A stretch of 64,000 nt of DNA from Eutreptiella sp. 'Long Island Sound 2002' (lineage: Eukaryota > Euglenozoa > Euglenophyceae > Eutreptiales > Eutreptiaceae), in NCBI GenBank assembly GCA_964036045.1, contig OZ038381.1, forward strand, positions 139,635,657-139,699,656. Direction: 5' to 3'. The notes beneath the pieces are model-generated. The model was not told the DNA's origin. It searched no databases and worked only from the letters and a program-made list of their open reading frames with translations. This document shows, in pieces, positions 9,180 through 55,408 of this stretch (positions within the stretch are counted from its first letter, which is position 1; every line of letters starts with the position of its first letter). A program made the position numbers and the translations under genes.

Positions 9180-10788
9180 AGGAGCCCCCACGGGAGTCGG
9201 ACCTCGGAGGTCTCTCCTCCGAAAAACAGTGGAATCCCAGAGAAAGCGAAGGCACATCGGGTGCCGAAGAAGGCTCCAGAAGAGCCAAAACCACTGAGTT
9301 TCGCAACTCCCAACCCCTGGAGCGCCCTGCCAAGGGAAGGTTATGTGGGCAAGGGACGTGGCAAGAAGGAAAGAGCGACCACGGAGAGCCCCGTGCACGG
9401 GCAAGACCAGCCCAATATCTACACCATCCGTGACCATACCCTCGAACTCCTAATGCACCCGGATGTGCTAGAGTTGCATGCCGTGAGAGTCGTCCATACA
9501 CCGCATGGCGATGAGCGGCAGTTGCACTTGAAGGTGCGTGTACGGTGCGGACAAGAGGAGTTGGTGGTGGATGTTTTGGTGGATACGGGTGCCCAGGTGA
9601 GCCTGGTCCCCAGAGGGTTGTTCAAGGAGGAATCCCTGCAGCCCAGCCGTAGACTGGTGCGCCTGAAGGTGGCCAATGGAGAGATCATGGGTGGTGGTAC
9701 CCATGAGGCCACCATCAGTATGGATTTCTGGGAGCATGAGCGCTTGAACCGCCCTGATCTGGCGAAGAGAAGCACTCTGTCCGGGAACTTCTATGTGGCC
9801 GACATTACAGATTGGGATATGATCATGGGGTATGACTTCATGGTGGCAAACGCCATTGGAGCCCTTCCCCATCGTGCAACGCTGGTCCGGGAGGATGATG
9901 AATGCCTCACATGGCTATCCACGGATTATGCATGCGGATCATTCCAATGGAATGCTCAGGAAGAGGATCGGATCGTCCGAGCGGTGCAAGCTGTGGGTGC
10001 CAAGTCCAGAGGAGGCCGTGGAGTTCAGCTCACGGAGTATGGAATGGCGCCGCAGGTGTATGCCAGGATGATCCAGACGCTGGGATCCGAAGCGCCCGGG
10101 ACGGACGTCTTCGCTTCCCGTGATACCCCACTTTTGCGGAAGTGTAGGAGGCATTGGCATCGAGGAGACTCAGCCTGGCACAGGTATTGGGGTTTGAAGG
10201 AGTGGGGGCCCATGTATTGGCATGGCTCCCTGGATAGCACCAGACGTACGGTGGAGAAGATCGTCGCTGATAGGGCGAAGGGGATCCTGGTCATAACCGG
10301 CATAGGAGCCACCCCATGTCCGCTGGAAGATCTCAAGTCGACGCTGGACTCCATCACCCTGAACGAGATGTCATTCGGGCCAGAGGAGGAGTTGTTCATC
10401 GACGCCAAGGGTGTATCAATGCCCTCCCCGGGTCAAGCGTGGGGTACCAAGGCTTTCCTGGTGGATGGAGCGCAGGACCAGCCCACGGATGATGAGGCAT
10501 TCATCCGTAGGGTGGAGGCGGTGCCCATGAATTTCATGTTTGAGCCCAAAGAGGGGACGGATCAGCCTATTGATGGCCTTGACGTCCTGTCCCACGCCGA
10601 GATCGACGACGTCGTCAACTACATGCGGATGGGGATGCATGACCGTGTGGCAGCCAAGAAGAGGCGGGCCATGGTCACATCTCCGCATTGGTGGGATGAC
10701 AGGATGTTGGTCACCGGCAAGTACGAGAAGGATGAGTTCGTGGCGAGGGTCATGGATCACATCGCGGACCAATACGATGGTCCGGTTG
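9180..10788 (+). pseudogene. pol: Pol of A1, part 1: protease and Dam-like domain
   Basis: In frame with gag after the UAG. The aspartic protease is seen at about 9560-9620 (VDVLVDTGAQVSLVP, the DTG motif). A Dam-like adenine-methyltransferase fold follows at about 10030-10480: DVFAS, then GPMYWHGS where related domains have an N-P-P-F motif, then the ILVITG strand and the AFLVDG end. The catalytic NPPF is absent, so this is probably a non-catalytic relic. The frame is broken at 10788 by insertion of A2 and resumes at 21487. Confidence 0.85.
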
Positions 10789-11908
10789 TAAAGAAGGTCC
10801 CTACCAGGACCGGCCCCCGCTGTCCCCCTTCCGCCTGTTACCCCTGCTGATTTACTCCGGATCAACGATTGCATTTCTCAAAATCCTCAAAGTCCAGGGT
10901 CCAAAATCCAAAAATATAGAAAATGTAATCCTCCTTCAACCCTGAATAGCAACCAGATCCCACAAATACAGCAATAACCCAATTCACAATCCAAATCAGG
11001 CTGCGGGCTTCCGTTCAGCACACCAGTCGTCTCACGGTGGCGGGCATGTACAAGAATTGCACCAAGGAAGAAAGCCCGAAAAAAAATAGACACTCAGAAA
11101 GTCGCAAAAAAATATTCCGTTGCACGGTCCAAGAGTTATTTATCAATTTATACCCTCTAGACCATTATCCCTTGCTACACCGGGCATGTGTACAGACCAA
11201 AGGCGTTTGATGCTTCCTAAATTAACTTAAGACCACGGCGCTTGCAACGCAACCTTTCTTATTCTCTGACCTCACACTCGCGCGTAGATCTGACCCTTCA
11301 AAGTGGTCCCACGATTCACTTTTGTTTTCCTTATATCTCCAAGTCAAATCGGTGGCAAGTATAAGGGATACCTGATTCGGGCATAGGGAAAGGAGTATGA
11401 CCACTCGAAGAAGACCAAATCAAGTGCGGCGATGTCGAAGTCGAAAATCGGATTTCGACATCGCGAAAGATTCAGATTAAAATTTCGAGTGCTTATTTAG
11501 AAAATTGCGGAAGCAACGAACCCTTTACTGAGGAAATCTGACCCTTCATCGGGGTTTCCGCCAAAATATCTGGAAATAACAGTTAACCAATCGGTTAACG
11601 CAAAATCGCGAGCCAACTGACAGTCGCCGATACATTGACCATCAGAAGGAAAGGCTGAAAAATTACGGAAATATTATGATAATAAAACCCTGTTGATTCC
11701 TGATATTCTGATATATAAATCTCCGCTGGCGGCGCCTCGGTACTGAATATGGCCGCTCATAGCCGGAATGGCCAAACCTATCACACTATCACATCGGGTT
11801 AGGTCAGGTGGATGGGAGAGTATGATATCAGCCAATGGTGGCTTGCCGGCACATAGATACACACCCCAAGTGCCCCCAAGATGGCCACGGGGGTCCGAAC
11901 CGGCTTCA
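10789..11908 (-). repeat. 3' LTR of A2 (short variant, 1120 bp)
   Basis: Reverse-complement copy of 20367-21486. In the element's sense it begins TGAAGCCGGTTCGG and ends ACCTTCTTTA. The 11-mer TAGACACTCAG at 11087-11097 marks the point where the long LTR variant has about 1.27 kb instead. Confidence 0.95.
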
Positions 11909-12192: not shown

Positions 12193-15100
12193 TCAAGGCC
12201 GAAAAGTCCCCGGATGAACGCCCTCACCCGTCTCCTCGATCACAGAAACAAACAAAAAGCCAAGGGGGATCCAGTACGGTGCTACAGCAGCAACCAAATG
12301 GACCAACACCTCCTTGACATCCAAAGAAATATTCTTTTTCTTCAGGTAGTCCATCCAGACCGTGGTGTACCTCGGCACAAAACTGCTCGGAGGCTCCCAC
12401 GAATCCCTGGATGCGGCAAATCCCTTCCAACGGACTTTATAAAGCCTACCCCCAGGCGTCCCCGGGTCCGGCTTGTCCGCCAGGATCTTCTCGGCGGTAA
12501 AGTCGTCGTCCTCACCCTCGTCGTCCGAGTCCACATCGCCGGCCGTGAACTCGAAGGTGACGAGACGTCCGCTGGGGTCTGGTGCTCGGGGACGAAGCTG
12601 GGTATGGTCGCGGTCCAGGATCTTGTTGTCCCCCACACGAACCGCATACACATCCTGCCCGACCTTCCGCACGATTACCCCCGGAACATACCAAGATGCC
12701 TGCCGATGCCTGGACAGGACATCCTTGTGGTGCCGCTCCACCCACACGGTGTCTTGGAGAGCATACTTCTGGACTTTTCCCTGCTTGAAGTACTTGGCCC
12801 TCTTGTCATGCTCGTCCTGAAGTGCCTTGCACACCTTGGCCGCCGTGTCGTCCGCCTCAGCCATCATGGCGTTCGCATCCCGGGCCACTTTGCCATGGTT
12901 CAACCACGGGAGAGTGCGTGACATTCGATCCCGTAGGAACAGGATGCAATGGGGCGACAGTCCGGTGGGCCCCGGAAGTTCGTGATACGCTTGGAGTACC
13001 CTCCACAGCGAATTGTACCAATTCCGCCCCGGTTCGTCGATGTGCAGCTGGCAGAACTTCTCGAACATCTGCCGCCCGGCCACCTCAGCCCGGCCATTCG
13101 ACCGGCAGTGGTACGCCACGGTCTTGGCGTGCCGAATCCCCATGTGCTTGCACATCGTCTTGAACCACGTCCCCACGAATTGACTGCCCCGATCGCTGCA
13201 GATGACAGCTGGGACATCAAAAATCGTCAGCCAATGCCTGATCATGGCATTAGCGACGGTCTTGGCCTGCAGCCCCACTCCATGCTTGTCCTTCTTGTCC
13301 TTCTTCTTGGACTTCTTGCCAGGGACCGCCACGATATACCCACTGTGCCTATCCACCGCCAGGATGACACAGTCGTAGGTCTCTCCTTCCACGGTGACCT
13401 CAGGCATGGCGAATACATCCATGGCCACGGACCGCATAGGGGCCTCCGGTATAGCCGTATACACCGGGTTGCCCGCTGTGGAGTAGTTGTGGCTCTTCGT
13501 GGCACGACACACGGCACAGTCGCTGCAGTACCTATCCAGGATGGCGTAGTACCCCGGAGGGAACTTGAAACGCCACTCCAGGTCCTGCTGCATCTTGTCT
13601 CGGCCAGGGTGCATGAGCTGGAGGTTGTGCCAATGGTCGATGAGCTCCTCCACTCGGTTCTCGGGCACCAGCACCTTGTCCTTGAGGAACAACTTGTCCC
13701 CATCCTCGGTCAAGCCCCCAGGCCACTCGTCGTCCGACGGGGCGCTCACGGCATTCCAGTACTTGCTCCAGTGCTCGGATGCCGCGTAGTCATCCGACCA
13801 GTCCTCTGTGACCACCGACCTGACTAGCTCTACAGGTGCCACCATCCACTGCTCGAGGAATTCCTCTCGAATAGCTTGGACGCGGGCGCCCCGGAACTTG
13901 GCCAGGTCCTTACGGTTTGCCATCACCACAAAGCACTTGACCCCCTCTTGCTCCATGGCCTTCTCCATCTCGATGATGCGCTTGGCCTCCTCGGTTTCCT
14001 CGGCGTCCCCATGGCTGGATATGTCCATCCAAGCCTTGCCCGCGGGGTAGGCCCATCGACTGAGGCAATCTGCCACAGTGTTGTCCTTCCCCGGGACGTA
14101 TACGACGCTGAGGTCGAACTTGGCGAACGTCTCATGCCATCGGGCCCTCCTTGCCGCCGGTCCCGAGGGGGTGTCGACGTGCTCCTTGTGCCAGCTCTGC
14201 AAGGACTGGTGGTCCGTGCAAACCACCACCGGTTGCAATCCGATGTGGCCAGACCACTTCCTAAGCGCACAGACAATGGCGTATGTCTCCTTCTCCCTCG
14301 CGGTCCAGGTGCGGCGTTGGCCCTCGGCCAGGATCCTGCTCCAGAACGCCACGGGTACGTGTGACCCGTCGTCTCGGATCTGCTCGAGGACTGCCCCCAC
14401 AGCATAGTCCGAGGCGTCCGTCTGTAGCACGAATCCCTTGTCCGGGTCCACCAGGAATAGCCCCAGTTGCCCCAGGAGTCGCTCCTTCAGGCGGCTGAAC
14501 GCATCTTTGGCCTCAGGGGTCCAAGCAAGCTTCTTCTTGCTCCCCTTCCGGCCATCGAACTTGCCCACTTGCAGCATCTTGTGCAGCGGCCCCGAGAGTT
14601 CTGCATACATCCGGACATAGCCCGAATAGTAGTTGCAGAACCCCATGAAGGACCGGAGTTCGCTGATGGTCTGGGGCTTCTCCCAGTGGTGCAGGGACGC
14701 CAGCTTCCCAGGCATGGGACGGCGTTGCCCGTGACCAACCACGTGACCCGCGAACTCCACTTCCTTCAACGAAGAGTGAGGCTTTGGTGGGCTTGCACAC
14801 CATGTTGTGCTTGTCCAACTCGCTGAGCACTCGGCGCAGATCCTTCTCATGCGCGTCGATGAGCTCGTCCTCAGTCATGTTCTCCGTGCCGGACCCGATG
14901 ATGATGTCATCCACGAAGGGGTCGGCACAGTCCCGGACAGGACCGAGTAGGGGCTCCATCATGCGCTGGAAAGTGGCGTTGCCACTCTTGGCGCCCATAG
15001 GCACCACTTTCCACTGCATGGGCCCCAGCGGCGTCGACATCGCTGTGCAGGGCCTGGAGTCCGGGTGTAGCGGCATCTGGTGATAGCCGTGTTTCAGGTC

Positions 15101-17341
15101 CAGCACCGTGAAAATCCGCTTTTTCTGTTGTTTTTGGAGGATGGAGTCGATCAGAGGGAGCGAGTACGAGTCGTGCTCGGTCTGCTCGTTCAAACCTCTG
15201 TAATCAACCACCAACCTCCACTCGACCTTCTCCTTCTTGGGCACAATGAAGGCTGGGCTGGCCCACTCACTGTCGGAGGGTTCGATCCATCCCCGCTCAA
15301 TGAACTCGGCCAACAGCTTCTTCATGGCCTCGGCCCGATCGCCCTGAAGTTGGTATTCCCGATGAAGATAGATCTTCGGGTTCGGCTTCAGCTTGATCTT
15401 CGCTGTACCAAACCTCCCACGATCTGGAGGGTTCTTGTTGGCGACGCCACTGAATAGCCGCGGATAGGCTTTGATCAGCCTCTCCTTCAGCTCGGCGACC
15501 TTCGGGTTCTCCTGGGCCCCTTCAGCCGCTTGCTTCGGTATAGATACAACCGACCGCACTGCGGTATAGGCCTCTTCTAGGTCCGAATCTGACTTCTCCT
15601 CGTCCGATATGCCGTCTTTATCGTCGTGGGGTGCACTTCCCACCGATAATCTTCGGAAATTTGCGGCCTCGGGCTGGTGACTGTCGCTATCGGCTCTTAT
15701 TCTTGGAAAATCCCATGTTGGTGGGTCCGACCCAACCGGACCATCGTATTGGTCCGCGATGTGATCCATGACCCTCGCCACGAACTCGTCCTTCTCGTAC
15801 TTGCCGGTGACCAACATCTTGTCATCCCACCAATGCGGAGATGTGACCATGGCCCGCCTCTTCTTGGCTGCCACACGGTCATGCATCCCCATCCGCATGT
15901 AGTTGACGACGTCGTCAATCTCGGCGTGGGACAGGACGTCAATGCGGTCAATAGGCTGATCCGTCCCCTCTTTGGGCTCAAACATGACGTTCATGGGCAC
16001 CGCCTCCACCCTACGGATGAATGCTTCATCACCCGTGGGCTGGGCTTGCGCTCCATCTACCAGGAAAGCCTTGGTACCCCACGCTTGACCCGGGGAGGGC
16101 ATTGATACACCCTTGGCGTCGATGAACAACTCCTCCTCTGGCCCGAATGACATCTCCTTCAGGGTGATGGAGTCCAGCGTTGACTTGAGACCCTCCAGCG
16201 GACATAGGGTGGATCCTATGCCGGTTATGACCAGGATCCCCTTCGCCCTATCCGCGACGATCTTCTCCACCGTACGTCTGGTGTTATCCAGGGAGCCATG
16301 CCAGTACATGGGCCCCCACTCCTTCAAACCCCAATGCCTATGCCAGGCTGAGTCTCCTCGATGCCAATGCCTCCTACACTTCCGCAAAAGTGGGGCATCC
16401 CGGGAAGCGAAGACGTCCGTCTCGGGCGCTTCGGCTCCCAGCGTCTGGATCATCCTGTCGTACACCTGCGGCGCCATTCCATACTCCGTGAGCTGAACTC
16501 CACGGTCTCCTCTGGACTTGGCACCCACAGCTTGCACCGCTCGGACGATCCGATCGTCTTCCTCAGCATTCCATTGGGATGATCCGCATGCATAGTCCGT
16601 CGACAGCCATGTTAGGCATTCATCATCCTCCCGGACCAGCGTTGCACGATGGGGAAGAGCTCCAATGGCATTTGCCACCATGAAGTCATACCCCATGATC
16701 ATATCCCAATCTGTAATGTCCGCCACATAGAAGTTCCCGGATAGAGTGCTTCTCTTCGCCTGATCAGGGCGGTTCAAGCGCTCATGCTCCCAGAATTCCA
16801 TACTGATGGTGGCCTCATGGGTGCCGCCACCCATGATCTCTCCGTTGGCGACCTTCAGGCGGACCGGTCTCCGGCTGGGCTGCAGGAGTTCCTCCTTGAA
16901 CAACCCTCTCTGGACCAGGCTCACCTGGGCACCCGTATCCACTAACACATCCACCACCTTCTCCTCTCGTCCACACCGTACCCGCACTTTCAAGTGCAAC
17001 TGCCGCTCGTCGCCATGAGGTGTATGGACGACTCTCACGGCATGCAACTCTAGCACGTCCGGGTGCATCAGGACTTCAAGGGTATGGTCACGGATGGTGT
17101 ACATCTTGGATTGGTCCTGCCCGTCCACGGGGCTCTCCGTGGTCGCTCCTTCCTTCTTGCCATGTCCCGTACCCACATAACCTTCCCTTGGCAGGGCGCT
17201 CCAGGGGTTGGGAGTGGCGAAACTCAGTGGTTTTGGCTCTTCTGGAGCCTTCTTTGGCACCCGATGTGCCTTCGCTTTCTCTGGGATTCCACTGATTTTC
17301 GGAGGAGAGACCTCCGAGGTCCCACTCCCGTGGGGGCTCCT
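12193..17341 (-). pseudogene. pol: Pol polyprotein of A2, single 1-bp frameshift
   Basis: In frame with gag after the UAG at 17342. Order: protease (VLVDTGAQVSLV); Dam-like domain with WHGS in place of NPPF; RT with VDYRGLN, the LDLKHGYHQMPL motif A and FVDD active site; RNase H (QTDASDYAVGAVLEQ); integrase with zinc region (HNLQLMHPG ... CSDCAVC) and D, D, E in AMDVF, CSDRGSQF and GRAEVAGR; then a chromodomain (YKVRWKGF...SWEPPSSFVPRY). The frame breaks near 14768, where A2 has one extra base in the RT/RNase H linker compared with A1 (TTCGTTGAAGG against TTCGTGAAGG). All catalytic residues except those of the Dam-like domain are present, so the element may have been active until recently. 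It ends with TGA. Confidence 0.9.
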
Positions 17342-17344
17342 CTA
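17300..17344 (-). promoter_or_regulatory. In-frame UAG with structured 3' context (gag-pol readthrough site, family A)
   Basis: The gag stop is UAG and pol follows in the same frame with no other stop. The next bases, AGGAGCCCCCAC, can fold: GAGGAG pairs with CTCCTC about 30 nt downstream and encloses the hairpins CCCAC-GGGA-GTGGG and GACCT-CGG-AGGTC. Stop-codon suppression at UAG is known from gammaretroviruses such as MLV. Function here is inferred. A1 has the same arrangement at 9177. Confidence 0.6.
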
Positions 17345-20300
17345 GACTTGGCTTCCCGCAGCCTCTTCTGGCTGCGATCCGCCAGGACTTTGTCCACCAC
17401 GTTGCTGGGCTTTGAGTTCCTCCAATGTCCTCAACATGTCCTCAGCAACCTCCACGATCGACCTCACTCGTCGGTCTTGGCCAGGTCCACCACCATAGCC
17501 TCTTCCCCCGCCTTTTCCTTGGCCTTTGCCTTGGCCTTTTCCCCCGTCTCCGCCCTTCGCCTTCCAATCGGAAATCCGCTGCTCCTTGGGTTTCTTCTCG
17601 GGGTGGGCGGCAAAGTAGGCCTTCTTGTCCGCCTCATACACCTTGCACTGACGGTGGTCATGTGCATGGTTGTTTCCCTTGCCATAACAGACCAAGCACC
17701 CGTCGTGCTGAAACCTGTACTCCCGGAACGAGAGCGGTGGGTTCCCGATCCTCCTTGGCGCTCTGCTCTTATTGGGTCCCACCTGGCTCCATCTGGACCG
17801 ATCCTGCCGATGGTTCCTCACATCGTGCGCCACAAACGCGAAGAAGTGGGCCTCCTCATGATCCTCCCGGGACCCGGTCCAGTGGTCTTGGCCACTTCCA
17901 CTACCATCCTCCGCGGAGTTGGCCGTGTCCTTCTGGATCTCCCGATGATGGCGGTCTTCTCGGTGGCCTTGTTGTCCATGACCATGTCGATCCTGCACGT
18001 GGGCCTCGTTCTTCGCATTGAGCTTCAACTCCACCGTGATGTACTTCACGATCTCGTCAAGGCTCATGCGGGCGAAGATGACTTGCATCCTCAGCGGCTC
18101 CCCGCGCCTCCACTCCACGTTGTTGAGGCGCAGCAACCTTTGCCCCATGGAGTCTCCAAACACCTCCACGTACACGGCGTTCTTCAGTCCCAACATCCGA
18201 TTGGGTTCGCCCAGGTTCCTCCTGAAGAACTCCATGATACCCGCATGGGTATCCTCCGCCGCCATGATCCTCACCGCCACCCGCTTCTTGGCGCGCTTCT
18301 TCTCCTCGTCCTCCACTCTCCTCTTCCAGTTGCCGGGGAGGACGTCCTTCAGGAGGTTGCGGATCTCGCTGGCCTCGTTCCAGTCCTCCACCAGCTTGAG
18401 GCATCTGCGGTACTTCCGCAGATACCGGTTCCACTCCCGGACCCGCAACTCACCGCGGTCCAGCGGCAGTGGGATGGACCACAGGTCCTCCAGCTTCTGG
18501 TTCGGAGCGTCCACCCGCTCCTCATCCTCCAACCACTGGAGGCAGGCCTGCTCCGTCCTGATCAGTCCTTCCCGGATCTGATCCCGCAGCTCCTCCTTCA
18601 GGTCCTGCCCCTGACGGTGTGGGAATGTCCGGCATCCCAACTTATCCCGCGGCGCTCCCCGCATCTCGCCGACGACCTCCTCGGCAAAGTCCTCCCAATC
18701 CAGGATGAAGTCATCCAGGTTGGAGGGGTTGCCATCGTAGTAGGGGATTTTGATTCCTCTGAGGTCGTCAATCCTGATTGCGTCTCCGACGTCTCCAGCC
18801 ACCACTCCACCGAGACGGATACCACCTGTGGCCGGGGGGTGTGAGTACACTCCCCGTACATCCCTCTCCTCCATGGAGTGCGGTCCAGTTGGGCCTGAAC
18901 CCATGGGGTTTGGAATGCAGGAGGGATTTGCTCCATCGGCCGTCCATATCCCCGTATTGGGGTCCTTCGCCCACAGGTTTCCGCCTGGATGACCTCGACC
19001 ATGTCCGTCGGCGCTTCCCATGGTTCGCCCCTGCATGGTCTGGCTCTCGATCTTCTCTTCCGCATAAACTACCATATTCGTCGTGATCGGTACATCCTGG
19101 GCGGCATGGGACATCTGTACCGTCAGGCTCCTCGGGTCCGTGGTTACGTGCCCTTCCCGCATGGACCCAGCCGGTGCCGTGTGTTCCCCGAGCATTGTGG
19201 ATTCGCTGAACATGGGAACAAACGGCAGCGCACCCGGGTCAACACGCGGAGGCGCGTATGGTGCCTCTGCAGGGCAGCCCATGGGTTTCTCCATGGCGCT
19301 CCTGAGGGTCTTAACCCGCTCCAACAGCTCTACCGCGGCCGGCTTTGCCGGGAGCTCCGGACCCGAGGCGAGGGGCTGTAGCTCCTCTAGCCTTTTCAGG
19401 CGTCCCGACATGTCCTCCACCAGGTGGAGGAGGCTGTCCACCACTCGCTGCTGCTTCTCCAGGGCCAGCTCCAGATTCTCCCGGTACCGGTCCCGTTCTG
19501 CTCGCAGCTCCTCCATGTCTTTCTCCGCGGCCGACTGGTCGTCCAGGATCCCCGCGACGTCCTCCTCTAGACCATCCTTGGCGTTGTCCAGGCGGTCAAG
19601 ACGATGCACGATGGCGTCCATCCCCATCTTCGGGTACTTGCCCATGAGGAAGGACACGTGCTCGCAGTGGCACGCAGCGTGCTTTCCGCCGGATTCAGCA
19701 CATCCCGCGGTTCCCGGCACCTCAGACTCATCGCCCATGGGCGTATCGCCTATGGCGTCCGTCTCTGGTCCCGTGTGCCGGGGCACAGGTGCCGTCCGGG
19801 CCCTGGCTGGCCTCTCCAAGCCCTCGGCGTCGTGCTTCAGGGCGGGCTCGGGGGCCGTATGCGCCCTGGCGATTGGCGCGGACATCTCCGACTCCGAAGG
19901 TGGCTCGTAGGCTGTCCGATAGCCCTCGGAGTGCCCCTCGGATTCCCACAGCCTGACCGGGCTGGGGTCCGTGTCCATAGCCCCGGCGTCCCTTGCCGCG
20001 GACTTGGGTGACCCGCGCTTCCGGTAGCGCCGGGCCCGTCCTCCACTGCTGCCTGAATGGCAGGCCTCATCAGAGTACTCCGCGGCGGAGCGGAGGTTGC
20101 ATGCCTTTCGGCAGCGACGCTCACACATGGAGACCAGGTCCTCCATGTCACGTCCTCCTCTTCCCGAATGTCGTACTCCTCTTCGGGCTTCAACTTCCGG
20201 AGTTCGCCATGCTCTTGAACGTCTCAGTTCTTCTATGGCTCCAATCTCTGGCGTGGTCTCCACTGAGTCCACAATACGCACCCGGGGCGTACTTGGGCAG

Positions 20301-20452
20301 GGCTCATAAGGGCCCAAGTCCCCGGGTCGGCGGTTGGTAGGGGCAGCAGGTAAGCCTCTGCAACCATAAAGAAGGTCCCTACCAGGACCGACCCCCGCTG
20401 TGCCCCTTCCGCCTGTTACCCCTGCTGATTTACTCCGGATCAACGATTGCAT
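17342..20452 (-). CDS. gag: Gag polyprotein of A2 (1036 aa)
   Basis: Uninterrupted frame from ATG 20452 to UAG 17342. The ATG lies inside the 5' LTR, 86 nt before its end, so the first 29 residues (starting MQSLIRSKSAGVTGG) are LTR-encoded and the PBS is translated. Order: Arg/Glu-rich N-terminus; coiled coil near residues 300-365 (EELRAERDRYRENLE ...); linker; capsid-like region near 520-790; nucleocapsid Cys/His cluster (CLVCYGKGNNHAHDHRQC) near 930; Gly/Lys/Gln-rich basic tail. It makes the virus-like particle and binds genomic RNA. The length is large for a Ty3 Gag but typical of long chromovirus-like elements in protists (inference). Confidence 0.9.
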   Translation of the reverse strand: MQSLIRSKSAGVTGGRGTAGVGPGRDLLYGCRGLPAAPTNRRPGDLGPYEPCPSTPRVRIVDSVETTPEIGAIEELRRSRAWRTPEVEARRGVRHSGRGGRDMEDLVSMCERRCRKACNLRSAAEYSDEACHSGSSGGRARRYRKRGSPKSAARDAGAMDTDPSPVRLWESEGHSEGYRTAYEPPSESEMSAPIARAHTAPEPALKHDAEGLERPARARTAPVPRHTGPETDAIGDTPMGDESEVPGTAGCAESGGKHAACHCEHVSFLMGKYPKMGMDAIVHRLDRLDNAKDGLEEDVAGILDDQSAAEKDMEELRAERDRYRENLELALEKQQRVVDSLLHLVEDMSGRLKRLEELQPLASGPELPAKPAAVELLERVKTLRSAMEKPMGCPAEAPYAPPRVDPGALPFVPMFSESTMLGEHTAPAGSMREGHVTTDPRSLTVQMSHAAQDVPITTNMVVYAEEKIESQTMQGRTMGSADGHGRGHPGGNLWAKDPNTGIWTADGANPSCIPNPMGSGPTGPHSMEERDVRGVYSHPPATGGIRLGGVVAGDVGDAIRIDDLRGIKIPYYDGNPSNLDDFILDWEDFAEEVVGEMRGAPRDKLGCRTFPHRQGQDLKEELRDQIREGLIRTEQACLQWLEDEERVDAPNQKLEDLWSIPLPLDRGELRVREWNRYLRKYRRCLKLVEDWNEASEIRNLLKDVLPGNWKRRVEDEEKKRAKKRVAVRIMAAEDTHAGIMEFFRRNLGEPNRMLGLKNAVYVEVFGDSMGQRLLRLNNVEWRRGEPLRMQVIFARMSLDEIVKYITVELKLNAKNEAHVQDRHGHGQQGHREDRHHREIQKDTANSAEDGSGSGQDHWTGSREDHEEAHFFAFVAHDVRNHRQDRSRWSQVGPNKSRAPRRIGNPPLSFREYRFQHDGCLVCYGKGNNHAHDHRQCKVYEADKKAYFAAHPEKKPKEQRISDWKAKGGDGGKGQGKGQGKGGGRGYGGGPGQDRRVRSIVEVAEDMLRTLEELKAQQRGGQSPGGSQPEEAAGSQV
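20355..20366 (-). other. Primer-binding site (A2)
   Basis: On the - strand TGGTTGCAGAGG, adjacent to the 5' LTR. It has one mismatch to the initiator tRNA-Met complement seen in A1 and B1. Confidence 0.8.
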
Positions 20453-21486
20453 TTCTCAAAATCCTCAAAGTCCAGGGTCCAAAATCCAAAAATATAGAAA
20501 ATGTAATCCTCCTTCAACCCTGAATAGCAACCAGATCCCACAAATACAGCAATAACCCAATTCACAATCCAAATCAGGCTGCGGGCTTCCGTTCAGCACA
20601 CCGGTCGTCTCACGGTGGCGGGCATGTACAAGAATTGCACCAAGGAAGAAAGCCCGAAAAAAAATAGACACTCAGAAAGTCGCAAAAAAATATTCGGTTG
20701 CACGGTCCAAGAGTTATATATCAATTTATACCCTCTAGACCATTATCCCTTGCTACACCGGGCATGTGTACACACCAAAGGCATTTGATGCTTTCTGAAT
20801 TAACTTGAGACCACGGCGCTTGCAACGCAACCTTCATTATTCTCTCTCCTCACACTCACGCGTAGATATGACGCTTCAAAGTGGTCCCACGATTCACTTT
20901 TGTTTCCCTTATATCTCCAAGTCAAATCGGTGGCAAGTATAAGGGATACCTGATTCGGGCATAGGGAAAGGAGTATGACCACTCGAAGAAGACCAAATCA
21001 AGTGCGGCGATGTCGAAGTCGAAAATCGGATTTCGACATCGCGAAAAATTCAGATTAAAATTTCGAGTGCTTATTTAGAAAATTGCGGAAGCAACGAACC
21101 CTTTACTGATGAAATCCGACCCTTCATCGGGGTTTCCGCCAAAACATCTGGAAATAACAGTTAACCAATCGGTTAACGCAAAATCGCGAGCCAACTGACA
21201 GTCGCCGATACATTGACCATCAGAACGAAAGGCTGAAAAATTACGGAAACATTATGATAATAAAACCCTGTTGATTCCTGATATTCTGATATATAAATCT
21301 CCGCTGGCGGCGCCTCGGTACTGAATATGGCCGCTCATAGCCGGAATGGCCAAACCTATCACACTATCACATCGGGTTAGGTCAGGTGGATGGGAGAGTA
21401 TGATCCCAGCCAATGGCGGCTTGCCGGCACATAGATACACACCCCAAGTGACCCCAAGATGGCCACGGGGGTCCGAACCGGCTTCA
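20367..21486 (-). repeat. 5' LTR of A2 (1120 bp)
   Basis: Pairs with 10789-11908. It contains the 11-mer TAGACACTCAG at 20665-20675 and the gag start codon at 20452. Confidence 0.95.
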
Positions 21487-46820: not shown

Positions 46821-47982
46821 GTGCATCACACAAAGCTCAACAACAAGTTCATCATGTCCACGCCAAGCGTCAGGACCTGGCCCATAAGAACTGTCCAAGT
46901 ACAAATGGGCAGCATGGCCCACCCTATGAGTGAACCATCTTACCGAGCTCCACATCTCAGTGTCGCATCTCGGTCCCAAGGAGATCCAGATCGCAGAAGG
47001 GCGGAAGAGAATACAATCCTTACCACCGAGGCCTTAGCGGCCCACGGTGGAGACAGCCTACATCATCTCCACAGGCGCGTAGCAGCCTCAGTCTCCCGAT
47101 CGGCCTGTCCGGCATCATCCTCAACAGCGATTGGAGGCCCTGAGGAATACGACGAACTGAGGAAGAAAATGGATGAATACATCTTCCATGAGGAGTACTA
47201 CAAATCCATTCGTGGAGAAGATGGGGAGGAGCCATTGGCAGTACACGGATCCAGACCACGTACAGACCTAGGGTCCTACACGCACTCTGGATCGCCGTCC
47301 GACAGAGCCGAGACAGCATTTCTGTCAAGACGACCGAGACCCGAGTATCCAAGAGCATGTTGTCCAACCCCAAGGGCTCCCGAAGTAGGCCCGACTCGAT
47401 TTGAGGGACAACATCATCCAAGGCCGACCTAGGTGCCCTGGATCATACGGCCCAACTGCTGGCCAAACTCCTGTCTGGATCAGAAGATCCAGATGTGACG
47501 GCCCTATCGGAGGCCGTTAAGGCGAAACTGCGTATTGCAGAACCCTTACCCAAGCCAGAGTTGTCCTCCCTCTCCCCCGGACTGAGTACCCTGGCCGAAG
47601 GTCTTAAGAGATCAAGGGTCTCAAGGCTGTTGCCTAACGTCACCTGCCCCAGCCCCTGTCACCCCCGTGCCAGGACAGTGCCCATGGCTGAACTACAGGA
47701 CGTGCCTGTGACAGAGACTGAGAAAAGAGGGCTGTCAGCCCTGGCACCTCTTGCCGGCGTATCACCTTCTGGCCTAACTCCGGGGGGTGGGAAGACGGGC
47801 AGACCTATTGCCCAGGCAAACATCCAGCTGGAACTGCCGGAGCTCGACCCCAAAAATCTGCCCGAATGGGCAGAAGAATTTGCTGAGTTTCTCTTGCTGA
47901 CTGGCCAATCCCATGTGGATGTGGCCACCAAATGGTCACTGCTGAAACGCTCATGCAAAAAGAAATTTTTGCAAAAACAGGT
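46821..47982 (+). pseudogene. gag: Gag of C2, N-terminal part
   Basis: ATG 46821 (or 46854) opens a frame to 47432. A shift is needed near 47350-47430 to continue in the frame that reads GALDHTAQLLAKLL and then to KSCKK-like basic residues before 47982. It is Arg/Ser/Pro-rich, followed by a helical segment (LPEWAEEFAEFLLLTG) that begins the capsid domain. The DNA transposon enters at 47983 after codons for FLQKQ; the reading resumes at 53734. Confidence 0.7.
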
Positions 47983-48030
47983 GCCCTGGGACCTTGTGAT
48001 AACCAGAGCTGTGTTAAATTCAATGCAACT
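47983..48030. repeat. Left terminal inverted repeat
   Basis: Begins (G)CCCTGGGACCTTGTG and ends GTTAAATTCAATGCAACT. It pairs with 53678-53725. The inner 23 bases are nearly perfect; the outer part has six mismatches. Subterminal AATTTAAC and GTTAAATT copies follow at 48040-48065. Confidence 0.85.
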
Positions 48031-48390
48031 ACAGGCCAGTTCAATTTAACAAAAATGTTAAATTAATCAAGCTATTGTGCATACATTAAAAAGGTTCAAA
48101 AAAACCCAAAATGTGCCCATTTTTCACCAAATTTCCTTTTCAAAATCAAAATTATTGACTATGCTCTTGTCCTCTTTGGTCCTAGCGAAGCAAAGCCTCA
48201 AGCCCAGGAGTCACGGTACACCAAGTCCAAACACCACGTTGTTTATCGATGGCGGTGCAGATTGAACGTTCAATTGAACATGGTGTTCCTCACATTGAAT
48301 GCACTATTTCCATGTGTCTATGAACACAAAGAAAACGCAAAACAGAAATGCACATATTAAAACAATATGAAATCTTTACATTAATCCATT

Positions 48391-48813
48391 TTACTCATTA
48401 TCAACCCCATCTTCATCACCATCAGCGCTGTTCAAGGACTCCCCATTCTCCTTTGCTGGACTCGGAATCTTTACTTTCAACGAGTACTCCTCTTTGTACT
48501 TCTTGCAGCGCGCTGTAGCTTCTGCCTCTGTGTCCTCACAGTCTGCTCTGCGGCATGCAACAAAGGCGTTGCTGACTTCCTCAGGAAACTGAGGAGGCAT
48601 TAGAAGCATCAGATAGCCACTCTTCTTTGCCCGTTTCCATTCACCAGCACTGCCCTCGTCCACATTGAAGCCCTTGAAGTTCGAAATGTCATAGCCAAAA
48701 ACCACTTCCCAGTTTGGTGGAGAGCTGCCTTCCATGCGCATCGGCACGTAGTATTTCACCAAATCTTTCAACTCCACTTCAGGTCGCTCCTTGGCTGGGC
48801 TCCTGGGTTCGTC
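48391..48813 (-). CDS. Short ORF or exon D (unknown)
   Basis: The frame runs from a good 3' splice site (TTTCCTGTAG at 48814-48823) to TAA at 48391, 140 codons, without an ATG near its start. This suggests a last exon. The product is acidic at the C-terminus (SADGDEDGVDNE) and contains VKYYVPMRMEG and WEVVFGYDISNFKGFN. I recognise no family. Joining it to the dioxygenase would need a phase-0 donor before the TAA at 48873, and the GT there is phase 2, so the link is unproven. Confidence 0.5.
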   Translation of the reverse strand, partial: DEPRSPAKERPEVELKDLVKYYVPMRMEGSSPPNWEVVFGYDISNFKGFNVDEGSAGEWKRAKKSGYLMLLMPPQFPEEVSNAFVACRRADCEDTEAEATARCKKYKEEYSLKVKIPSPAKENGESLNSADGDEDGVDNE

Positions 48814-48872
48814 CTACAGGAAACACGTAGCAATGGATGCAACACCAAATTTCCAAGTGCACTGGTGTCTTG

Positions 48873-49661
48873 TTACAAGGGGAACTTGAGCCGAAGGAGC
48901 TCCTCCCTGATGTGGGTTGAGGTGTTTGCAGCTGTGAATCTGCTGTAGAAGACAAGAGCATATCTTTCACCATGCCACTGGAGTGGGCCATGGATTTTGG
49001 TACCCTGAAAAACGACTCCTTGGGAAGCATTCAATGCATGTCCAAAGACGGCAGTCCCATCTGACATGTGCTTTACACATGGGTCACCACATTTAAGGGG
49101 ATCTGGAGTGCAAGGCATGCCAGATTCAACAAAGAACTCGCCCCCAGTATAGTCACCTAGGGTGATTACACCGCTGAGCCACCCCTGGTCATTTGGATGG
49201 GCATGCAAACCCATGGGTTTGTCCCCGCTACCTTTAACAACTGCAATGGCAGTCCATGTAGCTAACCTCCCACGCAACCTCAGTTGACCAAATGTGTTTA
49301 ACGCCCTTGTTAACACCTGATGCTTAGTAGTTGCGGCTCCTATTGTGGGAAATTTGAAACTTGGGAAGCTACTGGTGACCCCCAGAATCAACTTTTGAAA
49401 CGATGCCCCAAACGGATCCTCGGACGTCCATTCGTGCGCAGGGATTAGTCGCAGACGATTCAATACGCTCTCACCCAGACCTTCCTCAGACAGCAACCGG
49501 ACCTTGGTAGCTGGCGACTCCTTTGCTTTGCTCTGCTTCGGTTCCTTCGGTGCGGGGCACGCCTTCGATGCTTTCGGTGGTTCCAGCTCCATGAGTTCCT
49601 TTAGTCCCTTCTTTGACATCTTGCACGGAATTTTCGAGTTTCCTAACATGTTAAATTGCAC
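48873..49661 (-). CDS. TET/JBP-like 2-oxoglutarate/Fe(II) dioxygenase (262 aa), metal-ligand Asp replaced
   Basis: ATG 49661 lies within a GTTAAAT-type motif, so Met15 (MSKKGLKEL) is an equally likely start. A Lys/Pro/Ala-rich N-terminus is followed by a double-stranded beta-helix core at about residues 135-245. The core shows GLHAHPNDQG (His153), the strand LGDYTGGEFFVESG, then TKIHGPLQWHGERYALVFY, giving the distal His224 and the 2-oxoglutarate-binding Arg233. This matches the H-x-D ... G-D-Y-x-G-G ... H ... G-x-R-Y pattern of TET/JBP-type and related algal dioxygenases, which hydroxylate methyl groups of bases. The Asp of H-x-D is His155 (CAT; GAT would be one change away). The enzyme may be inactive or unusual. 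It lies 34 nt after gene B. Confidence 0.7.
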   Translation of the reverse strand: MQFNMLGNSKIPCKMSKKGLKELMELEPPKASKACPAPKEPKQSKAKESPATKVRLLSEEGLGESVLNRLRLIPAHEWTSEDPFGASFQKLILGVTSSFPSFKFPTIGAATTKHQVLTRALNTFGQLRLRGRLATWTAIAVVKGSGDKPMGLHAHPNDQGWLSGVITLGDYTGGEFFVESGMPCTPDPLKCGDPCVKHMSDGTAVFGHALNASQGVVFQGTKIHGPLQWHGERYALVFYSRFTAANTSTHIREELLRLKFPL

Positions 49662-49695
49662 AGCAACATTGTAAATTTAACCGATTTCACCGGAT

Positions 49696-51463
49696 TTACT
49701 TCAATTGAACATGAAAGTCCACCACACCTTTTTTCTTCTTGTGTGCTGGCTCATGTGTGTCACCGGTGGCCTCTTCTTCCGGAACCACAACGTCCGGCGT
49801 CTCCTCCCCGTGCCACATCTGCTCTTGTTGCCGCTTCCGCTTCGCCGCCTTGCGGGCTACCAACAGGAGACAGAACATGTGTACGTGATACGTGACTGTC
49901 GGCGATGGCGGTCGGCGTGTGCGCACGGAGCATACCTTTTTTGGCCAGTTTCCGTTCTGTCCAATTCATCTGCTCCTCATTGCTGGGCAACTGCACGAAC
50001 TCGCTGATGCTGCGCCACCATGCTGCTTTCCCCAGTGGTCTCTTGTTGTCACGCTCAAACCTCATGCACTAGGGAACACAATGTGGTAAGGAGAACCTGG
50101 TACAGGACTGACAGTGCCGTTCACGCTGATCTACATACCTCTGCACGCCGTTCCTTCGCATAGCACTCCAGAGCCTTCAGGATCCTCAAACCCCATGGTG
50201 GCTGTGAATGAAGGAGTCCGAGCAGGTCACCAACGTTGACTGTTTGTGGTTTCGTTTGAGGATGACTCATTGAGAACTGCAGGCCTCTCGGGCTGATCCA
50301 TATGTCTTCAATTATCCAGGCCGGGTCCTCTTGATTTGACATTGATTGCAAACAACTTGCGAACACATCCCGTGCATCTGGAGCTGCCGTGTTTCCTGCC
50401 GTGTTTGTATCCAGCTGGCAGCTGTTGCGCGCGCCGCACCCACGTGTTAGCGTGACACCAGTCAGCTTGCCTTGATAGAGATGTGTGTGGTCAGGGTTCC
50501 ACCATTCTGTGGGCGGGGGACCAAAGGCAAAATTGGCGGGACTCCTTGCGCCATGGCTGCCGGCCTGCGAATACGTTCCAAGACCGTAGCTTTCCCAGGC
50601 AGCAAACAGTCGTGCCCACACCTTTGTACACGGTGCTGGATAACCGCTGAGCGCAAAAACGTGGGCGGTCTGGGCCTGACGAGCCTCCAATGGTGCCCAC
50701 GTCGATGTCCACTCTCCACGCGAATTCACGAGCTTCTGGAAGGCCCGTTGATAAATGGTGCGCAGCGTTAAGTGCGCTCCGTGGGCTACGCTTACAATGG
50801 GCACTGATGGATGGGGCCATTCCCCTGTAACCATGCCATGGCTGAAAGGGAAGGAGTTGATAGGCACGAATGGTTCCGGCAGCTGTGGTACCGCCAACTC
50901 AGGTACCGCCAACTCAGGAACACCAGCGTTGTCAGCAAGATCTGTCAGCTCTTCCTTCAGCACAGCCTGATTCCCCAGTAATGCTATTTCATTGTCATCT
51001 ATGTTGCATCCATCCCACAGCACCTGAGTATCCATTTCTTCCTGGCGCAAATCATGCACACAAATGTAGGAATCGGACTGTGGCAAATGGTGTTAAATTG
51101 CCGCAAATCCGGAATCGGGGTTCAATTTAATCGATTTACGTTCAGTTTAACACTGCAGAAGGCCAGAGATTTACGATGTCGCCAGATCGCGCCAGATCGC
51201 TTCAATTTAACGTTAAATCCGCTAAGTTGAAAACAGGAGGATGCAATTTAACGCTAAATTCGTTAAATTTAAACTGCAACGCTGATTGCCATGTTTCCCG
51301 CCGCAGGCACCTATTTTTCATGAACCACAGAAACCATCCATACCTGGCTGGGATATCCGTTGACCATGGGCAGCTCTGGTGTGACTGGTGCTGGTGCAGC
51401 TTTGGTGGGTGTGGTCTCGTGCAGGGCAGCACGGAAAGCTCGGACGAAGGCTTCTGTTTCCAT
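49696..51463 (-). CDS. Four-exon gene B of the DNA transposon (450 aa, unknown)
   Basis: Exons by GT-AG junctions in matching phase: 51463-51344, 51077-50139, 50068-49936 and 49856-49696 (stop TAA). Donors are GTATGG, GTATGT and GTATGC; acceptors are CCACAG, CCCTAG and GGTAG. Introns are 266, 70 and 79 nt. Features: acidic Leu-rich N-terminus with a VPELAVPELAVPQL repeat; a central Trp/Cys/Gly-rich part (ECYAKERRAE near the end of exon 2); then a basic tail (WWRSISEFVQLP, RKLAKKARKAAKRKRQ, HKKKKG) that looks like a nuclear signal and DNA-binding region. It may be the accessory protein of the transposon, as in other two-gene elements. No family recognised. Confidence 0.65.
51078..51343 (-). 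repeat. Intron 1 of gene B, packed with GTTAAAT motifs
   Basis: This 266-nt intron holds at least six AATTTAAC/GTTAAATT words, including pairs such as AATTTAACGTTAAATC. The same word forms the inner terminal repeat of the transposon. Confidence 0.6.
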
Positions 51464-51509
51464 GGTAAAATAGAGAGCACTGCGCACATGAAGTAAATAT
51501 TCGACCACT

Positions 51510-53403
51510 TCAACCCTCGTCTTCTTCGCTGGAATTATTCTCTTCTTCACCGTCAAGCCAACCTTGTACCTCGTCACTAATCTCCTTATTGGAGGATGCA
51601 TGCCACCTTGTGTACCCGGACATGTGCAAGGGGATTGAGAAGTAAAGGAATATATATTCCATGGTTTGACGCATGGCACTTGCCTCACGGTGGAGACGAT
51701 CCGCATGGCCGGTGCCCACTATTTCCTCATTCACAACGCCCCCACCCCTATTTGTCATGGTTAAGAAGGTAATCTTTAAAAGATGGTTCAAAGGCTCTGC
51801 TGCATCTTGTGCAAGCAGGCCAAGACCAAACTTTCCAAGGGTGGGTAAGAGAATAGGGCAAATCTCTTCAAAGAAGAGTAGATAGTGAGAAGCTGACCGC
51901 GGTGCAATTTCTTGGCGGAACCTACCTGAAATCTCTTTACATTCTGCCATTGCACTATCACTTGCCCATGTACTATATAGCCTTCTCAAAAGGCTTGTCA
52001 TGTCCCGCACTGCTATATCTGCTGGTGCACCCTCAAGGCCAAACCACTTTACCAACTTCGGCCACGCAAAAAGAAGCAACCGCCATGTCCCTTCCCCAGT
52101 TGGCTTTGGCGTACGGCCAAGTTGCCACCTCACACGACACACTCTAAGAATTTTTGCTACTGCCTTCCCTTTTGATGAACCATAGTCATCCAGCTGGTCC
52201 TCGACAAATGTACAAACCAACCTCCCTATGCCCATGAGACCATGCAAGATGCATTGCACCATGCGACCCCTTTGACTACGGATTTCTGGTTCACTTATAC
52301 ACCCCCGCGTTCCCTGCACCACTGGTAGGTTATTTGCCCTGTAGCGGGCCTCCTGTTGCCATGAACGCCATGCTTGTTTATCCTCCCATTGGGAGGTTAG
52401 ACGGTTCCACCAAGCAAGGGTGTATATAGACCCCACTTGCCATGTTTCAGAAAGCCCTAGCCAACGCCGTAACCATGGCTCATCTCCTCCCCACCAGACA
52501 TCAGCAGGAACAACTTGTCCATTCCAGAGAGCTTCCTTTTTGTCAATAATCTCTTGAAGCTTCTGAAACAGGCGAAAATGACTATGGTTGTGCTTTTGAG
52601 AATGCTTTGTTTTGTCTAGTGGACGGTGTTAAATTTAGCAAATTGAATGCAACTTGTTGAGTTTAACAGTACAAACCTCTATATTTCTCTTCCATAGTTT
52701 GGCAAGTAGGGTGGCGCTCTTGTCACCAGTATAGGCAATTGATATGATGAATGTATGGGATAGGCTGCGGGCCATGTCCCCGAAATTTGCCATAGTAATA
52801 CTGATTTGGCTCCAGTTGGTTCCTGCAATGGGGAATGCATCCCCACGGACTATAAGGGATAGAGGCAGCGAATGGTCCAAGTCCTTGTGAAAAATTGGTT
52901 GCCCAGCAATATAGTCTAGGGCTTTCTGGAGTGGCCATGAAATACCAATAGCCCCTTGTTCCTGGCAAATGACCCCTTGATCCAACTGCATACGGCCCAC
53001 TAGAAGAGTCCATGCCTCCCGAAAACTTCTCCCTGGAGGGTAGTTGGGGGTACCATCGCACACCAGTGGTATGGCGGAAAGCTTGACCAAATGGGGTGAT
53101 AAACTTTTGTAGAATTGGATAACGGCGGCGTGGTACCCTAAGGTCCACAACCAACTTCACGGCTTCCTCTGGGGTACAGAGTTGCTGCCTCTTTTCCAGC
53201 TCTTGTTCCATTTTATTGATGTGGTGGGTAGAACCGTAAACTTTTTCATTTACTAGTGATAAGAGGTGGCGTCGATTTGGAGATCCTACAAAAAAGTTGG
53301 CCAATGTGTCCACAACACTAGGAGATGTAAGTGAAGTACTTTGAGTCGCTTGAAATAGGAACTGCTCTAATCCAAGAGGATCAAAGATAGCACTACGGTC
53401 CAT
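51510..53403 (-). pseudogene. Putative RNase H-fold transposase, one frameshift
   Basis: ATG 53403 opens a frame with STHHINKMEQELEKRQQL and EEAVKLVVDLRVPRRRYPIL. A one-base shift between about 53150 and 53050 is needed to reach the frame with GTPNYPPGRSFREAW. There IVRGDAFPIAGTNW (Asp at 52839-52841) is a candidate first catalytic Asp. A short intron (about 52616-52672, donor GTACTG, acceptor CCACTAG, phase 1) leads to the second exon. That exon has QCILHGLMGIGRLVCTFV and DAAEPLNHLLK (Glu at 51795-51797), a candidate final acidic residue in an E-x-x-N context, and an acidic tail ending in TGA at 51510. I recall similar unnamed proteins in cnidarian and algal genomes, but assignment to KDZ or another superfamily needs a profile search. 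Confidence 0.6.
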
Positions 53404-53677
53404 GCCTTGAATGCAATTCTAAGAAGGAAACACACATGGAGGCACAAGGTGCTATATAGAGATGTGGTGTACTTTCCAAACATTGCACTATGCATGAATG
53501 TAAGGAGCTATGTGGAAAGCAACATTTACTATGAGTGTAAAGGGCCTCAATAGTGGTGTTTCACCAAATTTGTTGAGTTGACGTTTTTGATGCACATGCG
53601 GCAAGCGCCGCAAATCGGTGTTAAATCTAACAATGTTAAATCGGTGTTAAATCTTCCTAAATCGAAACTATAAATTC
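53404..53677. other. Right subterminal region of the DNA transposon
   Basis: Upstream of the transposase. GTTAAATC occurs three times within 53620-53655. It probably holds the transposase promoter and binding sites (inference). Confidence 0.5.
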
Positions 53678-53725
53678 AGTTGGATTGAATTTAACACAGC
53701 CCTACTTATGACAGGGTCCTAGGGG
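53678..53725. repeat. Right terminal inverted repeat
   Basis: Inverted partner of 47983-48030; its outer end reads CCTAGGGG on the + strand. Confidence 0.85.
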
Positions 53726-53733
53726 AAACAGAT

Positions 53734-54701
53734 TGTGAAAACCTGTTCGGCCTGGGCAGAGGTACTCCAGAGGTTGGAGAAAACGTTCCCAGTCTATGAG
53801 ACTGACCTCAGTCTTCGCACACAGATAGAGGAGCTACCTATCCTCCCTGAGTTTCCTTCCGCTGCGCGAATCTCTGAATACGTGTGCGACTTGGAGTATC
53901 TGTTTTTGCGGATGAATGTGGGCTCCTACGGAGCCACTGAGCCCCACCTGTGGCTCATGAGTAAGATCCCCCAACTTACGTGGGATGATTGCCGCTCCGC
54001 GTCTGAGAGGAAGAGTAGGACTCACTTGTACGATGAACTGGTGGACCTCCTGATTGAGCTAGCTCTTGAGAGAGGGAATGACTCCCACATGGAGAACCTC
54101 CTCAAGAAGCATTTGGGTCGAGGTGGTACCCCTACCCCCGAACGGGGCGAAGGGAAAGGGCCTAAAAATCCCACTAACACCAACCAGGGAGGTGGTAAAG
54201 GGAGGGGTAACCTACGTGCCATGAATGAGGTTAAACCCGATGCAGGTACACCCCCACTGTTCTACTGCAAACCTGTCAATGACAAGGGGGGGCCTTGTCA
54301 TGCCTCTGACTGCGATCACCGCAGTAGCTGTATGCTGCAGATGAAACGACAGCAGCATACCAAGGATGGGAAACCTGTGACCCATCAGGATCATTTCAGG
54401 TATACCATCACCTGTGGCTATTGTGGCAAACGTCGTCACTACGAAGACGAATGTCACATAAAGAAACGCGAGAGTGATAAACTCAAGCGTCCGGAAGCCG
54501 AACGCCAGAAGACCCAAACAGCCACCAAAAACCCTCAGAATGGGGATAAAGGTGGTGAAGGAGGTGGCGAGGGGGGTGGCAAAAATGGACCCCCTGACCC
54601 CCAGAGGCGCTCATCAGCGCCCGTTGCTACACCCTCTCCTGCTGCTACACCCCTCTTGCCGCAGGTGATCCCAAGAAGCGCCCCCAGGGGGATGACGCTA
54701 C
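53734..54701 (+). pseudogene. gag: Gag of C2, central part with zinc knuckle
   Basis: In frame with the left part once the DNA transposon is removed (VKTCSAWAEVLQRLE). It continues the capsid (LPEFPSAARISEYVCDLEYL), then a Gly/Lys-rich basic region and a canonical zinc knuckle C-x2-C-x4-H-x4-C (CGYCGKRRHYEDEC) at about 54413-54460, then a Lys/Pro/Gly-rich tail. A frame change near 54660 would allow DPKKRPQGDDATDAFPW. Interrupted at 54702 by repeat R. Confidence 0.8.
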
Positions 54702-55408
54702 TGACGCGTTCCCGTGGGAGGCCTGGCCACGGGACGCTGCGGTGGACACGCACAAGTGAGCAGGCAGGCAAAGCACTACGCTCACACGGGCATCATTGCG
54801 CTCCTGTCATGTGAAAAAAAGGTTCAGAATCCTTGCCACTCTGCAATGAGGTAACAAAAGTATGTACAGCAACACATCAGGATATGTACACATGGGGTTA
54901 AGACTGGACTGGGCCAAGGGCATCACAGGACAATAGACACTCAGTCCCAACTTATATCCCATTCCCAGGTCCGACCCTCTCAGTGGCTGTCAGGGGCGGG
55001 GGCTCAAACACAACCCATGCCCTGCTCAGTCCGGACCCTGAAACCCTGCCAATAGGGGAGGTGTCCCGCCCAGCCACAGGCGAGTTCCTCGGAACCAAGA
55101 AGCTCTGAGGCCAACCAACAGTGGCTCCCTACGCTCCTATAACGGCAGGTCCGAACTCATCTCTGAGCGAGAGATATGGCCCCGCCATTATCCCCTAGGA
55201 GTTGGTAGCTGAAAATGGGCTCTTTCAGCCCAAACTGACATTAGCTCAAAAATCTCCAAAATTGACCCCTCGTCCGGACCCGCCAGAGGTAGGGACGAGG
55301 CAACTGACCCTATGCCCTTCACATACGAACTTCCTGGAGCCCTCACCCAACCTGGTTCCCTCTGAGGTCCCGGCATCAGGGCACCACGGGTTCGTCAAGT
55401 GGGGTCAT
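54702..55408. repeat. Repeat R, copy 1 (conserved 0.71-kb left part)
   Basis: Starts TGACGCGTTCCCGTGGG and is closely similar to 61547-62253 for about 0.71 kb. The two copies have different left flanks (gag here, integrase core in copy 2). It contains TAGACACTCAG at 54934-54944. GC-rich and non-coding. The first 70 bp can be read as a gag continuation, so the true left end is slightly uncertain. Confidence 0.7.

Follow-up and report, generated by a model that had tools for sequence, protein, structure and literature searches.

Does a DNA transposon of a euglenophyte carry, as a lasting part of itself, the means to counter its own silencing? The question is raised by a locus in Eutreptiella sp. 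'Long Island Sound 2002' (GenBank assembly GCA_964036045.1, contig OZ038381.1), where a transposon with four genes interrupts the gag frame of a retrotransposon. The locus lies in a 64,000-nucleotide stretch (positions 139,635,657–139,699,656 of the forward strand) that was analyzed as a whole and is called the window here. An earlier reading of the letters alone (the sequence-only reading) had proposed that the element carries its own TET/JBP-like dioxygenase and may couple transposition to the removal or alteration of DNA methyl marks. We find that the element is one of a recently amplified family of transposons, full copies of which carry four linked genes, and we are highly confident of its anatomy and of the four-gene cassette as described below. 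To the further reading that the genes linked to the transposase form a motif-addressed anti-silencing cassette we give a probability of roughly one half; we infer both the chemistry and the addressing.

The transposon is 5741 base pairs (bp) in length (47984–53724) and has all its genes on the minus strand. These are a transposase gene (T), gene B, a dioxygenase-like gene, and gene D, four in number as first described. In blastn alignments, the ends of 20 copies fetched from the genome fall at the ends of the window element or a few bases beyond, with differing flanks. The reported 47-bp terminal inverted repeats are present and are identical at 40 of 47 positions: the left repeat (47984–48030, plus strand) starts CCCTGGGACC and the right repeat (53678–53724, minus strand) starts CCCTAGGACC. 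Both begin with CCCT, giving the element the overall form CCCT..AGGG. A chance match between the ends is ruled out: 19 of the 20 copies carry one or both window ends, and the two ends give a local alignment score of 37, compared with a maximum of 26 in 200 random window pairs.

The extent originally given, 47983–53725, holds the element proper plus one flanking base per side. These two bases (g at 47983 and its right copy at 53725) are the target duplication, and the near-identical 8-bp flanking words reported earlier can only be terminal-repeat ends together with one flanking base, not a duplication. The element splits a gag frame on the plus strand (47405–54811), which regains 555 open codons once the flanks are joined minus the duplicate base; if that base is kept, a stop appears at codon 217. 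Removal of the element thus restores the frame, as had been argued, but only when one duplicated base is dropped along with it, and the frame argument therefore holds with a 1-bp duplication.

The 20 copies were picked by the score of their dioxygenase-like gene, so that copies without this gene are not visible in the sample. Both window ends occur in 17 of them, one end in two, and neither in one; the copies are 98–99% identical to the window element and have its ends. Among 15 near full-length copies, including the window's, the mean pairwise divergence is 0.67% (range 0.26–0.91%). Nearly all differences are private to a single copy (shared changes amount to five in coding and none in noncoding sequence), as expected of a recent burst from very few source copies. 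Target duplications were counted in the 18 copies with both ends (17 fetched copies and the window's), with the three fetched copies missing one or both ends dropped. The duplication is 1 bp in 13 of the 18, including the window's, 2 bp in four, and absent in one (L050); a duplication in 17 or more of 18 copies would arise by chance with a probability of ~1e-8. The duplicated bases are g, c, a, t, tg, and at, and there is no obvious target preference. Nine comparisons with empty paralogous repeats, covering seven copies, agree with these lengths (one base for L042, L043, L047, and L054; two bases for L055, L056, and L058), with the empty-site relative of L056 differing at one of the two duplicated bases. 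An 8-bp target duplication is ruled out by the 1–2 bp seen in the aligned copies and by the empty sites.

All four frames are open in some copies, for example L043 and L047. Broken frames also occur: stops interrupt T in L046 and L054 and both B and D in L057, and single inserted bases disrupt T in L041 and L058 and B in L044. We make no claim of purifying selection from changes among the copies, since the ratios are near neutral and the choice by dioxygenase score biases that gene to few changes. Two copies, L042 (2656 bp) and L053 (4499 bp), are natural, internally deleted derivatives that have lost part of the genes and retain the two ends. An annotated protein of 365 amino acids (P0033) joins T exon 1 sequence to the N-terminal portion of the dioxygenase-like gene and probably comes from an internally deleted copy.

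Are the dioxygenase-like gene and gene B parts of the transposon, as had been claimed? The dioxygenase-like gene lies inside both ends in 17 copies, albeit in a sample chosen by that gene, and both genes recur in a diverged family. Genome matches were scored for the dioxygenase-like protein (at least 146), T exon 2 (at least 111), and B (at least 125), these counts being lower bounds. At two diverged loci, L059 and L060, all four genes are found in the same order, with identities of 50% for T, 38–40% for B, 35% for the enzyme, and 36–40% for D. L059 has terminal repeats of its own, and the ends of both loci read CCCTAG, as does the right repeat of the window element. The same gene order at 35–50% protein identity argues that the dioxygenase-like gene is a stable component of the transposon.

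Linkage was tested on 70 T, 80 B, and 89 enzyme matches with identities under 60%, closer matches being left out. There are 18 T–enzyme pairs within 12 kilobases (kb), compared with 0.07 by chance. All 18 are on one strand, and 16 have the enzyme downstream at 5 kb or less. Order and strand are kept in 35 of 36 T–B pairs within 8 kb and in 25 of 25 B–enzyme pairs. A neighboring B or enzyme is present for 43 of the 70 diverged T matches, and nine loci, L059 and L060 among them, have the full order T>B>dioxygenase. Capture of the enzyme by a single copy only is ruled out by the genome matches, by L059 and L060, and by the nine ordered loci. A third type of the enzyme, 32% identical, occurs at L061 (G000:C4:147415500-147419500) in a frame at 1389–1973 on the minus strand, with longer frames upstream. 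No T match lies within 12 kb of L061 or of the 38 scored enzyme matches below 35% identity. A relative of L061, P0009, is listed also from the jgi and lgn sources (nine contigs), and relatives may therefore exist outside this assembly. Scans of viral and prokaryote contigs, which may omit records of the source genome, returned 0, 4, and 12 pattern matches, none of them related by tblastn.

What kind of transposase moves the element? The models of T and the other three genes are predictions from sequence. T consists of exon 1 (52677–53403, minus strand), which contains the first candidate catalytic aspartate (LIVRGDAF), and exon 2 (51510–52562, minus strand), which contains GGDEPW and QDAAE.LNHLLK; a GT-AG intron and conservation support the model. 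The gene model follows copy L043, the frame of exon 1 in the window being broken by a one-base difference in a column where only the window copy has a base and the 14 other near full-length copies have none. The resulting protein has 592 amino acids and a candidate triad of D188, D269, and E498. All three residues are retained in the diverged L059; D269 is kept in four T sequences, and E498 is altered in two of three further relatives. We infer that T is an Asp-Asp-Glu (DDE)-type transposase that carries out cut-and-paste movement of the element.

The earlier remark that T does not obviously fit a named superfamily is borne out by Pfam-A, where T has no transposase family at E≤10 (a match to ABM, at E 2.6, is by chance), and by the PDB, where it has no match. 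It is nonetheless possible, at somewhat less than even odds, that T belongs to a named DDE superfamily and has diverged past profile detection, in which case the cassette alone would be unusual. The stretch between the last two candidate residues is long and mostly helical in a weak model (pLDDT, the predicted local distance difference test score, of 37; exon 2 alone modeled), and a D-D-E arrangement with such a stretch is the general plan of several DDE superfamilies. The CCCT..AGGG ends resemble those of piggyBac. Duplications of 2 bp, present in four of the 18 copies, are known in some lineages and would also suit a named superfamily. Set against this are the lack of a Pfam family or PDB match and the 1-bp duplications of any base (13 of 18), which lie outside the lengths of 0, 2, 3, 2–5, and 5–8 bp given in the accessible parts of Kojima 2025 (PMC12730594).

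Gene B has three exons (50139–51035, 49936–50068, and 49696–49856, minus strand) joined across GT-AG introns, and encodes 396 amino acids with a basic C-terminal part. Gene D is an open frame of 140 amino acids (48391–48813, minus strand) whose 5' exon boundary is uncertain, making the protein at least 140 amino acids in length. Profile libraries gave no meaningful match to the element proteins. The dioxygenase-like gene lies between B and D (48873–49649, minus strand) and encodes 258 amino acids in a single exon. Its candidate metal motif, HxHxxD...H, comprises H149, H151, D154, and H220, which are invariant in nine sequences from three families. R229 is shared by the three family representatives. 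These motifs suggest that the protein probably has an oxygenase fold, and we put the prospects that it acts on 5-methylcytosine (5mC) in DNA as evenly balanced.

Could such an enzyme be directed to the element itself? The motif GTTAAAT occurs 15 times in the element, compared with 0.8 times in dinucleotide shuffles, and twice in the remaining 58,259 bases of the window. It is clustered at the left subterminal region (three; 48013–48063), 5' of the dioxygenase-like gene (two; 49650–49681), 5' of gene B (five; 51092–51268), and at the right subterminal region and 5' of T (four; 53620–53695); the T intron has one, along with a related core motif at 52660 (52628–52668). None of the 15 falls in coding sequence, though this makes up 4174 of the 5741 bp (the window element being the one for which overlap was computed). 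GTTAAAT is absent from L059 and L060, which instead have TGTTCAAT, 13 and 12 times, at matching places, and L061 has clusters of GTTCAACC, 15 copies in all. All three motifs are variants of a TGTTNAAYY core, which occurs 15 times in the window element, 12 times in L059, 10 times in L060, 14 times in L061, and four times in the rest of the window. Motif-directed targeting of the enzyme is a tentative interpretation of this pattern.

A more ordinary explanation, which we consider rather unlikely, is that the clusters are transposase-binding subterminal repeats and promoter boxes, and that the enzyme does not act on DNA bases, being for example a cupin-type or protein-modifying oxygenase. The positions of the clusters, near the two termini and at the starts of genes, are those expected of subterminal repeats and promoter boxes. 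Weak structural look-alikes of the enzyme model include cupins and cysteine dioxygenases, proteins that bind iron by three histidines, and the enzyme motif has two conserved histidines and a distal one. However, the motif is also found in the T intron at all three T-bearing loci read, and it switches between families while its places are kept. The conserved linkage of the enzyme to the transposase likewise favors a function within the life cycle of the transposon itself.

Do the copies bear signs of DNA methylation? C>T (or G>A) changes in the 15 copies number 28 in 422 CpG bases, compared with 42 in 2359 other C/G bases (odds ratio 3.9, p 3e-7). Transversions show no excess at CpG, and CHG (H, any base except G) equals CHH, with no CHG excess. 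CpG-biased C>T change typically points to CpG methylation, although CpG sites may also decay for other reasons. The genome also has 55 matches to C5-methyltransferases. Many of these, spread over many chromosomes, are partial matches that score almost alike and have similar open frames, and they may be carried by repeats. The proposal that the element may remove methyl marks is helped by the CpG footprint and the methyltransferase matches.

In the mechanism we propose, T would cut and paste the element as a DDE-type transposase, and B, the dioxygenase-like gene, and D would form an anti-silencing cassette. A protein of the element, with B or D as a guess, would bind the family's own short motif, here GTTAAAT. 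Its landing places would be the motif clusters, which are found in the two subterminal regions, upstream of the genes T, B, and dioxygenase-like, and within the intron of T. The bound protein would bring the enzyme, which would oxidize 5mC at CpG, and this oxidation would keep the promoters and ends of the element usable. A bolder version, which we regard as unlikely, is that the element represents a new superfamily of DNA transposons, marked by 1–2 bp duplications and an unassigned transposase, and has a complete self-addressed demethylation device, made up of an element-encoded reader of the family's motif and an oxygenase with an unusual His-rich metal site, and that related families re-address the device by motif change. 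Should the enzyme act on 5mC and be addressed by the motif, the two related families with different motifs would be a natural pair for studying how a selfish element confines demethylation to itself and, if this is true, a template for sequence-addressed epigenome tools.

Several observations weigh against this mechanism. The metal motif of the enzyme, HxHxxD...H, is not the HxD or HxE of known TET/JBP proteins. The three enzyme sequences match no Pfam family at E≤10, profile searches link the enzyme neither to TET/JBP nor to any 2-oxoglutarate (2OG) family, and its fold model is poor (pLDDT 42), with nothing found by Foldseek at E≤0.001. R229 varies in the nine-sequence alignment. Three more relatives, set aside because of frameshifts or decay, include two that depart from HxH. 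At the motifs, columns are better conserved between L059 and L060 (102/105 versus 1261/1402, p 0.014), a weak difference that is partly built in by the choice of columns. For 27 of the 70 diverged T matches, neither partner lies within 8 kb among the scored candidates; these loci may be decayed, may lack the partners, or may have partners that were not scored. The CpG changes in the copies imply that any protection is incomplete, and the gene changes after insertion look neutral, as expected of dead-end copies, and thus give no sign of enzyme use.

In the sequence-only reading, the third gene was a 2OG-Fe(II) dioxygenase of TET/JBP type. The motifs speak for the first part of this assignment, which lacks a profile match and a strong fold model. 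Membership in TET/JBP is not borne out, given the metal motif and given that Pfam Tet_JBP (PF12851) matches the genome only once, outside the element copies (C2034:19243-19665, minus strand, E 6.6e-18, open frame of 534 amino acids). The contig of this match is small, and the gene may belong to the host or to a contaminant. Neither TET nor CMD1 is among the matches listed in VIA (50 rows), which excludes nothing. The unusual metal motif would also suit an enzyme that, instead of erasing 5mC, makes a modified base by which the element is protected from the host. JBP and CMD1 yield base J and 5-glyceryl-methylcytosine (5gmC), respectively, and activities other than that of TET are possible for transposon-borne enzymes, according to the accessible parts of PMC12730594. 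We hold such a protective role to be improbable; Pfam recognizes no glycosyltransferase or other modifying enzyme in the cassette.

Elsewhere in the window, several long Ty3/gypsy-like frames, named by eye, occur at 6060–35400. Some are close copies on opposite strands (e.g., 6060–10847 and 14516–20455), and their gag ends are glycine-lysine-rich.

How does the element compare with known systems? A literature search found no description of it, most subscription papers and preprints being outside the coverage of the search. The accessible parts of Kojima 2025 (PMC12730594) describe TET/JBP-positive DNA transposons of fungi in 11 named lineages, with HxD or HxE enzymes and a proposed anti-silencing role; the TET-positive DDE lineages there have target duplications of 2–8 bp. 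These transposons and the Eutreptiella element alike have inverted repeats and a dioxygenase-like gene beside the transposase. The element differs in its 1–2 bp duplications, its HxHxxD motif, its unassigned T, and its family-specific motif arrays, which do not feature in the accessible parts of PMC12730594. If the enzyme acts on DNA, the element would work like these fungal transposons.

The particular likeness to KDZ transposons that had been drawn is not supported. KDZ elements travel with TET/JBP genes, and their duplications are 8 bp in Zisupton and Dileera and 7 bp in Kyakuja in the accessible text of PMC12730594, unlike the 1–2 bp found here. T has no KDZ match in Pfam-A at E≤10, and neither this result nor the duplication length supports KDZ membership. 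The KDZ profile PF18758 has no match in the genome, and control genomes gave none either. Duplication length, confirmed by the empty sites, likewise does not fit hAT (5–8 bp) or IS3EU (6 bp) as given in the same source, and PHISTA and ESTA require TA duplications, in place of the g, c, a, t, tg, and at found here. EnSpm/CMCT elements mostly have CA..TG ends, 2–5 bp duplications, and C(2)C and H(3-4)H between the second D and E (PMC12730594, accessible parts). The element has CCCT..AGGG ends, and of 18 copies 13 have single-base duplications and four have duplications of two bases. The Spm/TnpA system of maize involves subterminal binding, CACTA ends, and other proteins. Differing from it, the element has CCCT..AGGG ends and a dioxygenase-like gene; TnpA is an element protein linked to demethylation of its element, with no dioxygenase mentioned in the accessible parts of PMC10398659.

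The addressing has its closest parallel in the VANDAL transposons of Arabidopsis, in which binding and demethylation by VANC proteins have been demonstrated (PMC5735166, PMC10398659). As far as the available portions of these papers describe, VANC target motifs are found chiefly in noncoding parts and introns and differ between related VANDAL families (Hosaka 2017, PMC5735166; Sasaki 2023, PMC10398659). The window element similarly has family-specific motif clusters in its noncoding parts (0 of 15 in coding sequence), and L059 and L060 have another motif at the same places. Unlike the element, VANDALs are classed as MuDR (PMC12730594), and no dioxygenase figures in those portions of PMC5735166 and PMC10398659; here T is unassigned, an oxygenase-like gene is present, and both binding and demethylation are putative. 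Fungi have transposons with TET/JBP genes, and Arabidopsis VANDALs show targeted anti-silencing; the Eutreptiella element unites features of both with an unplaced transposase.

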